Origin: Candidatus Hydrogenedentes bacterium CG07_land_8_20_14_0_80_42_17 | GTDB taxonomy: Bacteria > UBA8481 | Direction of reading: 5' to 3' | Assembly (NCBI GenBank): GCA_002780065.1 | Contig: PEWQ01000145.1 | Location: 1-5,598 of the forward strand | Length of the DNA stretch: 5,598 bases | In this document: piece after piece, positions 3,753 through 5,512 of the stretch | Position numbering within the stretch: position 1 is the first letter of the stretch | Layout: the number at the start of each line of letters is the position of its first letter | The notes under the pieces: model-generated | The model's database searches: none | The model's input: only the letters and a program-made list of their open reading frames with translations | What the model was told of the DNA's origin: nothing | Translations under genes and position numbers: made by a program

Positions 3753-4670
3753 TTACTTCAGCTCTTCAAATAACCCTTTCAATTCTTTGCCAATTTCAGC
3801 ATCACCGTCGTTTTGACTTTTGACTGATTCGTTAATCTTTTTAGCAATCTCTTCCGGCTTTTGTTTTAGCATAACATCTATCTCTGCGATTTCAGCTCTG
3901 ATAACCATCGCGGCTTGAACAGCATTTTGGTCGGTGCTCTTCATCACTGCGTTCATTGTTTCCTCTAATTTCTGACGCTTGCTGGCAAGCATATCGTAAA
4001 TGTTCTTGAACCCTTTTGATGATGCCCGCAACTCAAGCATTGCCGTCATTTGATCGGCTATTTTTGAATTATCAGTATTAGATGAAACAAATTCTTCTTC
4101 AGGCTCGCTTTGTGTATCACCTGCCTTGACCTTTTCAAGAAATGAGAGCATCTTTCCTTTTGGTTTTGATGATGCGGCTGAAGGTTGAGATGAAATAGGA
4201 GCGGGAATTTGAGCTGAAGCAGGTTGAGTTGAACTCGCTTGAGTCGTACTAGTTTGAACCGATTTCAGAAATGACATCATACCGCCTTTGGGACTCGGAG
4301 CAGACTCTTTTGGAGTATAGCTCGCCGCTTGAGATGAGGATCGAGTTTCATGGCTGGATTGAGCCTCACCGACTCGCTTAGGCTGAGGTATTGCTCCGTC
4401 CGGAACAAGAGATTTTCGTTCAGAGACGGCTGGAGCAGATTGAGCGGCTTGACTTTCAACTCCGGGAAGTTTTGCAAGGTAAAGCCTTGGAGAATTTGAA
4501 ATCTCCATGAACTTGGCTCTGGCAACACTTAATTTTTCGACCTCTTCAAGATGCTTTCCTGAGACAAGCAGTTCTTCAATCTTATGATTCAAATAATCGA
4601 TCTTTGCTTGAAGAGCCTGACTTAAAAATAAATCAGGATCTAAATTGTTATCTTCTATTCTGAATGTCAT
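3753..4670 (-). CDS. Cytosolic helical protein with disordered Ser/Ala/Pro/Gln-rich centre and a duplicated short motif
   Basis: This gene encodes 305 residues of a family I do not recognise. There is no signal peptide or membrane segment, so it should be cytosolic. Residues 1-60 are charged and helical, plausibly a coiled coil. Residues about 72-200 are low-complexity and rich in Ser, Ala, Pro and Gln, hence probably disordered. Inside this linker a motif occurs twice: PKGGMMSFLKSV at 127-138 and PKGKMLSFLEKV at 170-181. Residues about 203-305 form a charged, mostly helical domain ending in GLFEELK. The ATG overlaps the upstream stop codon as TAATG and has no good Shine-Dalgarno of its own, so translation is probably coupled to the membrane-protein gene. 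The layout of two helical ends joined by a flexible linker with repeated hydrophobic peptides suggests an adaptor or scaffold, perhaps binding the neighbouring membrane protein; that is inference. No enzymatic motif is visible. Confidence 0.9.
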   Translation of the reverse strand: MTFRIEDNNLDPDLFLSQALQAKIDYLNHKIEELLVSGKHLEEVEKLSVARAKFMEISNSPRLYLAKLPGVESQAAQSAPAVSERKSLVPDGAIPQPKRVGEAQSSHETRSSSQAASYTPKESAPSPKGGMMSFLKSVQTSTTQASSTQPASAQIPAPISSQPSAASSKPKGKMLSFLEKVKAGDTQSEPEEEFVSSNTDNSKIADQMTAMLELRASSKGFKNIYDMLASKRQKLEETMNAVMKSTDQNAVQAAMVIRAEIAEIDVMLKQKPEEIAKKINESVKSQNDGDAEIGKELKGLFEELK

Positions 4671-5017
4671 TAGAACTTAAACTGATTAATCCAGAAGGCG
4701 ATGGCTATTATCGAGAAAGCAAAGAAGAAGAGCGTGATCGAAATAGAGAGAAGAAGAGTCAGAGGAAGTTCGAAATAATCCATCACAGACGACGCAATTT
4801 TTACTACGTTCGGCCCGAATCCATCGTTTAGCTGACTTTGAATACGCTTCTTGAAGAGCGACATGATGTAGAATATAACGATAAAAGTGACTAGCGGTAT
4901 TAAGAATCCGACAAGCAGAAATATGGAGCCTGTGGTAACTGCTATAAGAAAAGCTATTCCTATGACTAAAAATAGAATCGCAAATAAAATCATCTTCATT
5001 ACAGGATCATCTTTCAT
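4670..5017 (-). CDS. Small integral membrane protein, three predicted transmembrane helices
   Basis: This gene encodes 115 very hydrophobic residues of unknown family. Likely membrane helices are at about 9-28, 31-53 and 84-110. The first two form a tight hairpin separated by a few residues (TTGS). The positively charged stretch F55-K-K-R after the second helix suggests that the loop at 54-83, which ends in an amphipathic segment, faces the cytoplasm. No cleaved signal peptide, catalytic residue or lipobox is evident. The ATG at 5017 is favoured over the second Met (residue 7) because AGGAG lies five bases upstream. It is the first cistron of the operon, its stop codon shares one base with the start of the next gene, and its 5' untranslated region begins in the tRNA-tail repeat. 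It could anchor the cytosolic protein encoded next or help place the exported one; neither is shown by the sequence. Confidence 0.88.
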   Translation of the reverse strand: MKDDPVMKMILFAILFLVIGIAFLIAVTTGSIFLLVGFLIPLVTFIVIFYIMSLFKKRIQSQLNDGFGPNVVKIASSVMDYFELPLTLLLSISITLFFFAFSIIAIAFWINQFKF

Positions 5018-5022
5018 AACTG

Positions 5023-5027
5023 CTCCT
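5023..5027 (-). promoter_or_regulatory. Shine-Dalgarno AGGAG of the membrane-protein gene
   Basis: AAAAGGAG ends five bases before the ATG at 5017 and is the strongest ribosome binding site of the operon. It decides the start over a second in-frame Met six codons later. A 5-bp GC hairpin (GCCCC-GAA-GGGGC on the mRNA, 5049-5037) derived from the tRNA-tail repeat sits about nine bases upstream, leaving an A/T-rich single-stranded stretch around the site. Confidence 0.8.
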
Positions 5028-5030
5028 TTT

Positions 5031-5210
5031 AATTTTGCCCCTTCGGGGCGGCCGGATGACGGCGTATTCCTACACGCCGTGAATCCATAGGCTACGATAC
5101 ATCCTGTATCGTGATTAATTAATTTTGCCCCTTCGGGGCGGCCGGATGACGGCGTGTTCCTACACGCCGTGAATCCATAGGCTACGATACATCCTGTATC
5201 GTGATTAATT
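5031..5210 (-). repeat. Two tandem 90-bp units, each carrying a copy of the tRNA-Pro 3' end plus two hairpins
   Basis: Units at 5031-5120 and 5121-5210 differ at one base only (A5066 versus G5156). A third partial copy of 27 bp, 5211-5237, runs into the real tRNA gene. In gene direction, each unit contains two palindromes and then the last 15 nt of the tRNA (part of the T loop, the 3' T-stem strand, the 3' acceptor strand and A73), followed by 12 nt of trailer. One palindrome is ACGATACA-GGA-TGTATCGT (5094-5112 and 5184-5202). The other has the stem ACGGCGTG/CACGCCGT (5149-5170, with the outermost loop-side pair lost in the copy at 5059-5080). The remaining 63 bp resemble a REP-like palindromic element and are GC-richer than the flanks. 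The arrangement recalls the E. coli tyrT distal repeats, where a tRNA tail is also repeated downstream of the tRNA. Confidence 0.95.
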
Positions 5211-5222
5211 AATTTTGCCCCT

Positions 5223-5296
5223 TCGGGGCGGCCGGATTTGAACCGGCGACTCCCTGGTCCCGAACCAGGTGCGCTACCGGACTGCGCTACGCCCCG
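5223..5296 (-). tRNA. tRNA-Pro, anticodon CGG
   Basis: The 74-nt minus-strand gene folds into a standard cloverleaf. It has a 7-bp acceptor stem (CGGGGCG with CGCCCCG), a 4-bp D stem GCGC/GCGC with GG in the loop, an anticodon stem CCTGG/CCAGG with loop TTCGGGA, a 5-nt variable loop GAGTC, a T stem GCCGG/CCGGC with loop TTCGAAT, and discriminator A (5223). The anticodon CGG (5262-5260) reads CCG. C1:G72 and A73 are the usual bacterial tRNA-Pro identity elements. CCA is not encoded, so a CCA-adding enzyme is needed. The trailer AGGGGC right after A73 can pair with GCCCC of the 3' acceptor strand, a possible competing hairpin before end processing. No T-tract terminator follows, so transcription may continue into the downstream repeats and operon. 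Confidence 0.97.
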
Positions 5297-5305
5297 TATA
5301 TTGAA

Positions 5306-5334
5306 AGCATATTATCGCAATAATGATTTGTCTA
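5306..5334 (-). promoter_or_regulatory. Candidate sigma-70 type promoter for tRNA-Pro (and possibly the operon)
   Basis: Reading the minus strand, TAGACA (5334-5329, one mismatch to TTGACA) is followed after 17 bp by TATGCT (5311-5306, four of six to TATAAT). The tRNA 5' end lies nine bases past the -10 box, so initiation would leave only a very short leader. An overlapping TAATAT at 5314-5309 is a better -10 sequence but gives a 14-bp spacer. No other promoter is apparent between here and the first protein gene. Confidence 0.5.
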
Positions 5335-5371
5335 CCATCAGAAGATAAAAAAATGAAAAAAGGCAGTAGCA

Positions 5372-5411
5372 GAAATTTGAAATTGTAAATTGAAAATTTC
5401 ATTTTTCAATT
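5372..5411. repeat. Short degenerate heptad fragment with an AT-rich hairpin
   Basis: The reverse complement of 5372-5392 reads CAATTTA-CAATTT-CAAATTT, closely like the array/core junction of the right inverted-repeat arm (CAATTTG-CAATTT-CAAATAT), including the same one-base-short unit. It appears to be a truncated further copy in the same orientation, without the core. Next to it AATTGAAAA (5388-5396) and TTTTCAATT (5403-5411) form a 9-bp stem with a 6-nt loop. There is no T-run, so it is not read as a terminator. Confidence 0.55.
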
Positions 5412-5426
5412 ATTTCACACGTTCTA

Positions 5427-5512
5427 CGGAGAAAAAAAATAGATAAAAAATCTCAATGTCTTGGTACATGGTATGTTATAATATTTGAAATTGCAAATTG
5501 GAAAGTGCAAAT
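5427..5512 (-). repeat. Right arm of the long inverted repeat (core plus about four heptads)
   Basis: This is the reverse-complement partner of 219-308. The core at 5442-5487 matches 290-245 at 41 of 46 positions by hand alignment, followed outward by the units CAATTT, CAATTTG, CACTTTC and a partial unit when read on the minus strand. Unlike the left copy, the heptad part stops after about four units and is followed by unrelated sequence from 5513. A plus-strand TGTTATAAT (5474-5482), an extended -10 type sequence, lies in the core and points outward; the left arm has TGTTATTAT on the minus strand at 258-250, also outward. Confidence 0.85.

Follow-up and report, generated by a model that had tools for sequence, protein, structure and literature searches.

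The stretch of DNA analysed here (the window) is the whole of contig C28, 5,598 nt long, from a genome bin (G000) of 2.39 Mb in 207 contigs. ARAGORN placed a tRNA-Pro gene with the anticodon CGG at 5223..5296 on the minus strand, and the gene was also matched by Rfam (RF00005, 67.6 bits). Because tRNA-Pro(CGG) is on the minus strand, the repeats found at lower coordinates lie downstream of it. Directly downstream of the repeat array is the gene for a 115-aa membrane protein (4670..5017, minus strand), and the order tRNA-Pro(CGG), membrane protein of ~115 aa and a conserved 305-aa protein (3753-5017 for the two proteins) forms a syntenic block shared with J006. This genome, a Candidatus Hydrogenedentota (contig RFFU01000144.1), is the only other genome of the order that we compared. 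At the orthologous junction in J006, tRNA-Pro(CGG) is followed by a membrane protein 53% identical to that of the window and by the next gene, with no repeat unit between tRNA and membrane protein. A 30% match to the membrane protein was also seen on a viral contig.

The window holds several further repeats. An AT-rich tandem repeat of the AATTTGCACTTTCC/AATTTTCAATTTGC type occupies the contig end (1-245), and related AAATTGAAAATT stretches are found at 5375-5510 as well as behind the Pro-TGG, Val-GAC and Glu-TTC tRNAs of the same genome. A dispersed repeat, TTTCACACGTTCT...AAAAAATCTCARTGTCT, is present at 5401-5480 and 255-330 as well as downstream of tRNA-Pro(TGG) and tRNA-Glu(TTC), and a similar stretch lies behind tRNA-Val(TAC). 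Within a 1093-aa open reading frame, a 15-bp unit, ATTGATTGGCAATCG, is repeated three times in frame (2752-2792), encoding a repeated QSIAN. An Rfam match to ‘HIV-1_SL3’ at 4888-4951 fell below its cut-off and was taken as chance.

The trailer of tRNA-Pro contains a pair of 90-nt units followed by part of a third, all on the minus strand. The proximal unit spans 5133..5222 and the distal unit 5043..5132. As stated in the initial annotation, they are one base apart (99% identical; A5066 versus G5156). This difference turns a G-C pair in hairpin B (described below) into a G-U pair, and the structure is therefore preserved. The initial annotation had also described three identical 27-bp blocks, each with the last 15 nt of the tRNA and 12 nt of trailer. 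The three copies, their 90-bp spacing and the 15 nt of tRNA were confirmed, but the exact block is 29 bp long (5029-5057, 5119-5147 and 5209-5237) and its trailer part 14 nt.

Read in the sense of the tRNA, each unit begins with AGGGGC, an acceptor-like 5' strand (5217..5222 in the proximal unit), continues through an AT-rich linker to hairpin A, a spacer, GGAUUCA, hairpin B and UC, and closes with AUCCGGCCGCCCCGA, the stretch of tRNA-Pro(CGG) that runs from T-loop to discriminator base. In the proximal unit, hairpin A (ACGATAC-AGGAT-GTATCGT; 5184..5202) presents a CAGGAUG loop like that of the CsrB repeat, and the distal unit carries the same loop at 5094..5112. Hairpin B lies at 5149..5170 in the proximal unit, where its loop is AGGA, and at 5059..5080 in the distal unit. 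The GGAUUCA between the two hairpins is the T-stem strand of the unit. The proximal and distal units finish with copies of the final 15 nt of the tRNA, at 5133..5147 and 5043..5057, respectively, and GGGGC of the acceptor-like strand pairs with GCCCC of the tail copy, in line with the test of own-tail matching described below. The array ends with a third copy of the 14-nt trailer (5029..5042), adjoining the upstream region of the next gene. A single 90-nt unit folded with an MFE of -40.4 kcal/mol (z = -5.5; none of 200 shuffles folded as well). No terminator-like site was found between tRNA-Pro and the units on scanning 4950-5450.

We then inspected the trailers of the tRNAs that Rfam found in G000, and the element was present behind Gly-CCC, Met-CAT, Ser-GCT, Ser-CGA, Leu-GAG and Pro-GGG, and in decayed form behind Pro-TGG and Ser-TGA. 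A covariance model (R1), run on the whole genome, gave 13 matches at E <= 3e-5, including both units of the window (5144-5203 and 5054-5113). R1 added Ala-CGC, the 3' end of an apparent tmRNA gene (C129), Gly-GCC (C106) and a copy cut by a contig end (C159). The tmRNA gene is interrupted by Ns and its Rfam matches are partial and below the gathering score; a unit with GGA hairpins sits at its 3' end. A tmRNA-linked repeat is not mentioned in the literature cited here. The number of units per locus is two at Pro-CGG, at least two in tandem behind the N-interrupted tRNA-Gly(GCC) of C106, and one at most others. Every copy with an intact end terminates in the tail of its own tRNA. Tail copies matched at 15 of 17 nt at Gly-CCC, Ser-GCT, Ser-CGA and Leu-GAG, compared with a background of 1 in 63 tRNAs of unrelated genomes. 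A further R1 match, on C35 (E = 0.7), was taken as chance; that contig carries no tRNA.

Other than the copy at the contig end, no significant R1 match in G000 lay away from stable-RNA genes. The search for the element and for other tRNAs with tail copies, which the initial annotation had proposed, thus revealed recurrence at about a dozen tRNAs. It also weakened the suggestion made there that a dispersed REP-like hairpin had inserted repeatedly, as 13 of 13 significant copies were at tRNA or tmRNA genes, behind the N-interrupted tRNA-Gly or at a contig end. The copies are not scattered irrespective of their neighbours, as REP or MITE elements would be, nor is the element equally common away from tRNAs, an outcome that had been named as one that would speak against a tRNA-linked arrangement. 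The assembly is fragmented into 207 contigs, some of the units border on a contig end or an N gap, and the copy number could in principle be an artefact of metagenome assembly. However, the two units of the window differ by one base and the element occurs at many independent loci. We find this explanation barely credible, and an artefact is unlikely for the element itself because it recurs elsewhere and is in tandem at tRNA-Gly(GCC). The tRNA-linked element of G000 is a real and well-supported RNA feature.

The shared fold was examined in alignments of the units. In a MAFFT alignment of seven sequences, 95.5% of the cells paired and 10 of 16 pairs had changed on both sides; in an alignment of 13 sequences, which leans towards the structure as it was fitted to the model, the values were 93.7% and 11 of 16. 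None of 500 shuffles was as good in the covariation measures, and all slid registers fell far short. The free MFE of the Ser-GCT unit differs from the shared fold, which for this unit rests on the alignment. The Met unit, in which both sides are changed (GGAAG and CUUCC), had pointed to a kissing interaction between hairpin A and the tail (GGAUG with CAUCC), which was rejected since the tmRNA unit combines CAGGAUG with a CUUCC tail.

The ends of the units follow the host gene. The T-stem pairing GGAU/AUCC gives way to GGAA/UUCC in the Met and tmRNA units, precisely the ones whose host gene contains UUCC. The 5' strand of the units is complementary to the acceptor strand of their own tRNA, with a summed score of 53.5 against a mean of 40.9 for permuted partners, and permutation reached 53.5 once in 200,000. 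In Met and Ala, for instance, 7 of 7 pairs are complementary, and Gly-CCC and Leu have six pairs plus a G-U; tRNAs without the element score 3-5. The Gly-GCC unit is a weak case in this matching.

A second conserved property is found in the hairpin loops. GGA was present in 19 of 26 loops of the G000 units, where dinucleotide shuffles gave an expectation of 3.9 +/- 1.7; as the units are interrelated these are not independent events, and the point is that the loops stay while the stems change. The loop of hairpin A is CAGGAUG or CAGGAAG, with UGA in place of GGA in the Leu-GAG unit. The CAGGAUG and CAGGAAG loops resemble the CsrB repeat, CAGGA(U/A/C)G (PMC7652899). An ANGGAX hexaloop borne on a stem is a high-affinity site for CsrA/RsmE, and absence of the nucleotide N of A(N)GGAX, which hairpin A of G000 lacks, lowers affinity in RsmE (PMC4005645). 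Hairpin B of the Ser-GCT unit, CGCC-ACGGAU-GGCG, is a canonical ANGGAX hexaloop. The recurrence, the host-matched ends and these CsrA-type GGA loops had all been missed in the initial annotation.

Template switching at quasi-palindromes, together with unequal crossing-over at tRNA ends, could also make and homogenise tail copies with no selection involved. Adjacent inverted repeats are a classic substrate of templated mutation, the acceptor complement and the tail are such repeats, and the near-identical units of the window suggest a recent duplication. Such events would, however, leave unexplained both the conservation of GGA loops on diverged stems and the core shared between different tRNA loci, and we regard them as a highly improbable account of the element.

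A csrA gene is present in G000, behind fliW, and its product matches solved CsrA/RsmE chains (2jpp and others). J006 encodes a CsrA 67% identical to that of G000, and CsrA is also encoded in the sampled stretch of G151, a genome of another phylum discussed below. FliW is the known antagonist of CsrA in B. subtilis, C. jejuni and other bacteria that lack CsrB-type sRNAs (PMC4894983). The presence of FliW implies that RNA sponges are not required in G000, and a layer of RNA control would be additional.

We compared the array with the trailers of J006, where R1 detected no copy of the G000 element. J006 has tRNA-tail units of its own, 140-180 nt long and with exact tail copies, behind Arg-ACG, Asn, Gln-CTG, Val-CAC and Ser-GCT, and partial or decayed units behind Arg-TCG, Ser-GGA, Ser-TGA and Asp. 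They carry an inverted copy of their own T-arm upstream and a direct copy downstream, and are unrelated in sequence to the G000 units. Each of the eight J006 units tested has a C-ANGGAN-G hexaloop, and the stems that carry it differ (loops AAGGAG, AGGGAG, ACGGAC, AGGGAU twice, AGGGAA, ACGGAA and ACGGAU). Five of the eight have a C-AGGAN-G pentaloop in addition, and the Asn unit has one GGA loop only. Ten units, eight of them from J006 and the others from G000, together held 15 stem-loops of the C-ANGGAN-G or C-AGGAN-G type, against 0.16 expected and a maximum of 2 in 2000 shuffles.

Over 290 genomes, R1 matched only G000 and, weakly, one unrelated genome, G173 (C81 7419-7483; a single match, E = 3e-4), and ARAGORN found no tRNA in the stretch fetched from the latter. 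A DNA-pattern scan of genome and viral collections gave no match to the element, and its sequence therefore looks lineage-specific. When the 290 genomes were scanned for a pattern of T-loop, CAGGAWG and AGGA, more than one match was obtained only in G000 (5), G151 (3), G289 (2) and G152 (2). Chance probably accounts for the matches in G152, G011, G028, G044 and others. Another phylum is represented among the genomes compared by G151 and G289 alone, and in their tRNA-Ser units the acceptor complement (GGAGAG) is accompanied by a hairpin with CAGGAUG, by GGGAU/AUCCC, by a further hairpin that has AGGA, and by a tail copy; behind tRNA-Gly of G151 there is an exact tail copy. R1 scores these units weakly, so that the layout is shared but homology is not demonstrated. 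Downstream of tRNA-Lys(CTT) on C7 of G151 we also observed two tandem units of ~75-80 nt that contain GGCACGTACT...CGCGAGCCANGATGGTGAG and have degenerate tRNA tails, the second having CGA in place of GGA.

These comparisons bear on whether the array is the footprint of a mobile hairpin or integrase that targets the T-loop and 3' ends of tRNAs, leaves target duplications and has no RNA function. The T-loop is a known crossover region of integrases, and the tail copies start there. The J006 junction without an element, the spread over a dozen tRNAs, which implies movement or conversion, and four Y1 transposase genes in G000 are all in keeping with such a footprint. However, the units are 90 bp long and gene-free, and no copy was found away from stable-RNA genes apart from the one at the contig end. 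Neither a recombinase gene nor mobile cargo lies between the tail copies, as would be expected of att sites (the interval between tail-plus-trailer blocks is ~60 nt of noncoding DNA), and by inspection no open reading frame on contig C28 was assignable to a recombinase. A simple insertion would not give a 5' strand that fits each host tRNA; compensatory change is strong and the loops are conserved; and the same layout is attained in J006 and in G151/G289 by unrelated sequences. We therefore consider a mobile footprint improbable, and less likely than an arrangement of tRNA-linked repeats.

The closest known kind of element is the tRNA-linked repeat (TLR, or RtT) of E. coli, of which there are 22 units at ten loci, each identical over its 3' 18-19 bp to the 3' terminus of the tRNA or rRNA that precedes it (PMC8144298). 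The initial annotation had offered a tyrT-like arrangement as one of two readings, and our examination of the E. coli tyrV and proK units bore out that this is the right kind, with a tail copy, an inverted T-arm complement, a hairpin body and tandem units common to both. Like the tyrTV and proK repeats, the G000 units lie directly downstream of a stable-RNA gene on the same strand and end in a copy of the 3' end of their own RNA; with one unit at most loci, two at Pro-CGG and at least two at Gly-GCC, they also agree with the one to five units per locus of TLRs. In the tyrV and proK units, the inverted T-arm complement lies opposite the tail copy and encloses the hairpins (GGGGAAGGAT in tyrV and GAGGAT in proK). 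The tail copy starts in the T-loop, and the complement (GGGGAAGGAU and GAGGAU in the RNA) surrounds hairpins without GGA loops. The G000 units differ in having GGA loops, in their length (90 versus 178 nt), in occurring at many more genes, including tmRNA, and in their acceptor-like stem. In blastn comparisons, the E. coli units and those described here shared only 10-11-mers and one weak 20-nt match, indicating no sequence homology. The Rfam RtT model (RF00391), which scores E. coli tyrTV and proK at 101-138 bits, gave no match in the window or at the G000, J006 and G289 loci tested. The G000 element has the layout of a TLR and would work like one, but does not belong to the RtT sequence family.

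TLRs have been known since 1978, and no function was known before the three 5S-linked units were tied to CsrA. These RNAs (rrA, rrB and rrF) arise by processing of the rRNA transcript, and their GGA motifs mediate binding to CsrA with an apparent KD of about 100 nM; the 19 tRNA-linked units are predicted not to bind CsrA, and deletion or over-expression of rrB gave modest and partly contradictory CsrA phenotypes (PMC8144298). Similar to the G000 units, rrA, rrB and rrF finish with a copy of the stable RNA that precedes them and carry GGA stem-loops, rrB having a CAGGACG loop. They are, however, 5S-linked, lie behind a terminator and are near-identical at three loci, whereas the G000 units are linked to tRNA and tmRNA genes with no terminator-like site in the window. 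CsrB/CsrC and RsmX/Y/Z resemble the units described here in having several GGA stem-loops per RNA, with CAGGAUG loops and ANGGAN hexaloops. They are dedicated sRNA genes of Gammaproteobacteria, while here two sites per unit are distributed over a dozen tRNA transcripts in a genome that also has FliW. Thus, G000 has the multiple GGA motifs in hairpin loops and the CsrA expected for an RNA antagonist of CsrA, but the motifs are in tRNA and tmRNA trailers and not in a dedicated sRNA gene. A regulatory RNA from a tRNA 3' trailer, as proposed here, has a parallel in 3'ETS-leuZ of E. coli, which base-pairs with the sRNAs RyhB and RybB; neither a tail copy nor CsrA sites are described for it in PMC8144298.

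Taken together, we think it probable that the array is part of an independent TLR system, and that the RNAs processed from it titrate CsrA in parallel with the synthesis of tRNA and tmRNA. The array, on the same strand as tRNA-Pro and with no terminator-like site between 4950 and 5450, would be read through as the 3' trailer of the tRNA. Since a copy of the tRNA 3' tail stands at the end of every unit, and tRNA-like acceptor and T-stem pairings close it, we propose that the nucleases that process the ends of stable RNAs release the units by acting at the tail copies. A released RNA of ~90 nt would show two GGA-loop hairpins, both of which could be bound by a CsrA dimer, and such an RNA would be a CsrA binding site and most likely a sponge. 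Since the units would be made from tRNA and tmRNA transcripts, titration of CsrA would track tRNA and tmRNA synthesis and hence growth rate.

The same processed RNAs might instead use their GGA loops for another GGA-binding protein or for anti-Shine-Dalgarno pairing, or might serve tRNA 3'-end processing, or as a decoy, through the acceptor/T-stem cap. The acceptor-like stem is matched to the host and, judging from established tRNA processing, would make a substrate like those of RNase P or RNase Z. In the tRNA-linked units of E. coli, the inverted T-arm complement and the hairpin body are retained although GGA loops are absent, which indicates that the cap probably has a function in its own right. 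The loops, however, fit the CsrA/RsmE consensus specifically, with C-ANGGAN-G in all eight J006 units, and CsrA is encoded in the same genomes, which makes these other functions unlikely as the explanation of the array.

Titration of CsrA by the G000 units would have wider implications. The same layout occurs with unrelated sequences in at least two distant lineages, and CsrA-type hexaloops are kept while the stems change, suggesting that the layout is selected and predicting its binding partner. It is possible, though we hold this tentatively and at somewhat less than an even chance, that tRNA- and tmRNA-linked repeats are a widespread and repeatedly evolved class of CsrA-titrating RNAs. Many bacteria have CsrA without a known antagonist sRNA (PMC4894983), and a class of this kind would bear on that gap. 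It would provide a function for the TLRs of E. coli and an RNA layer in the control of CsrA outside the Gammaproteobacteria, and would couple global post-transcriptional control to the synthesis of stable RNA.
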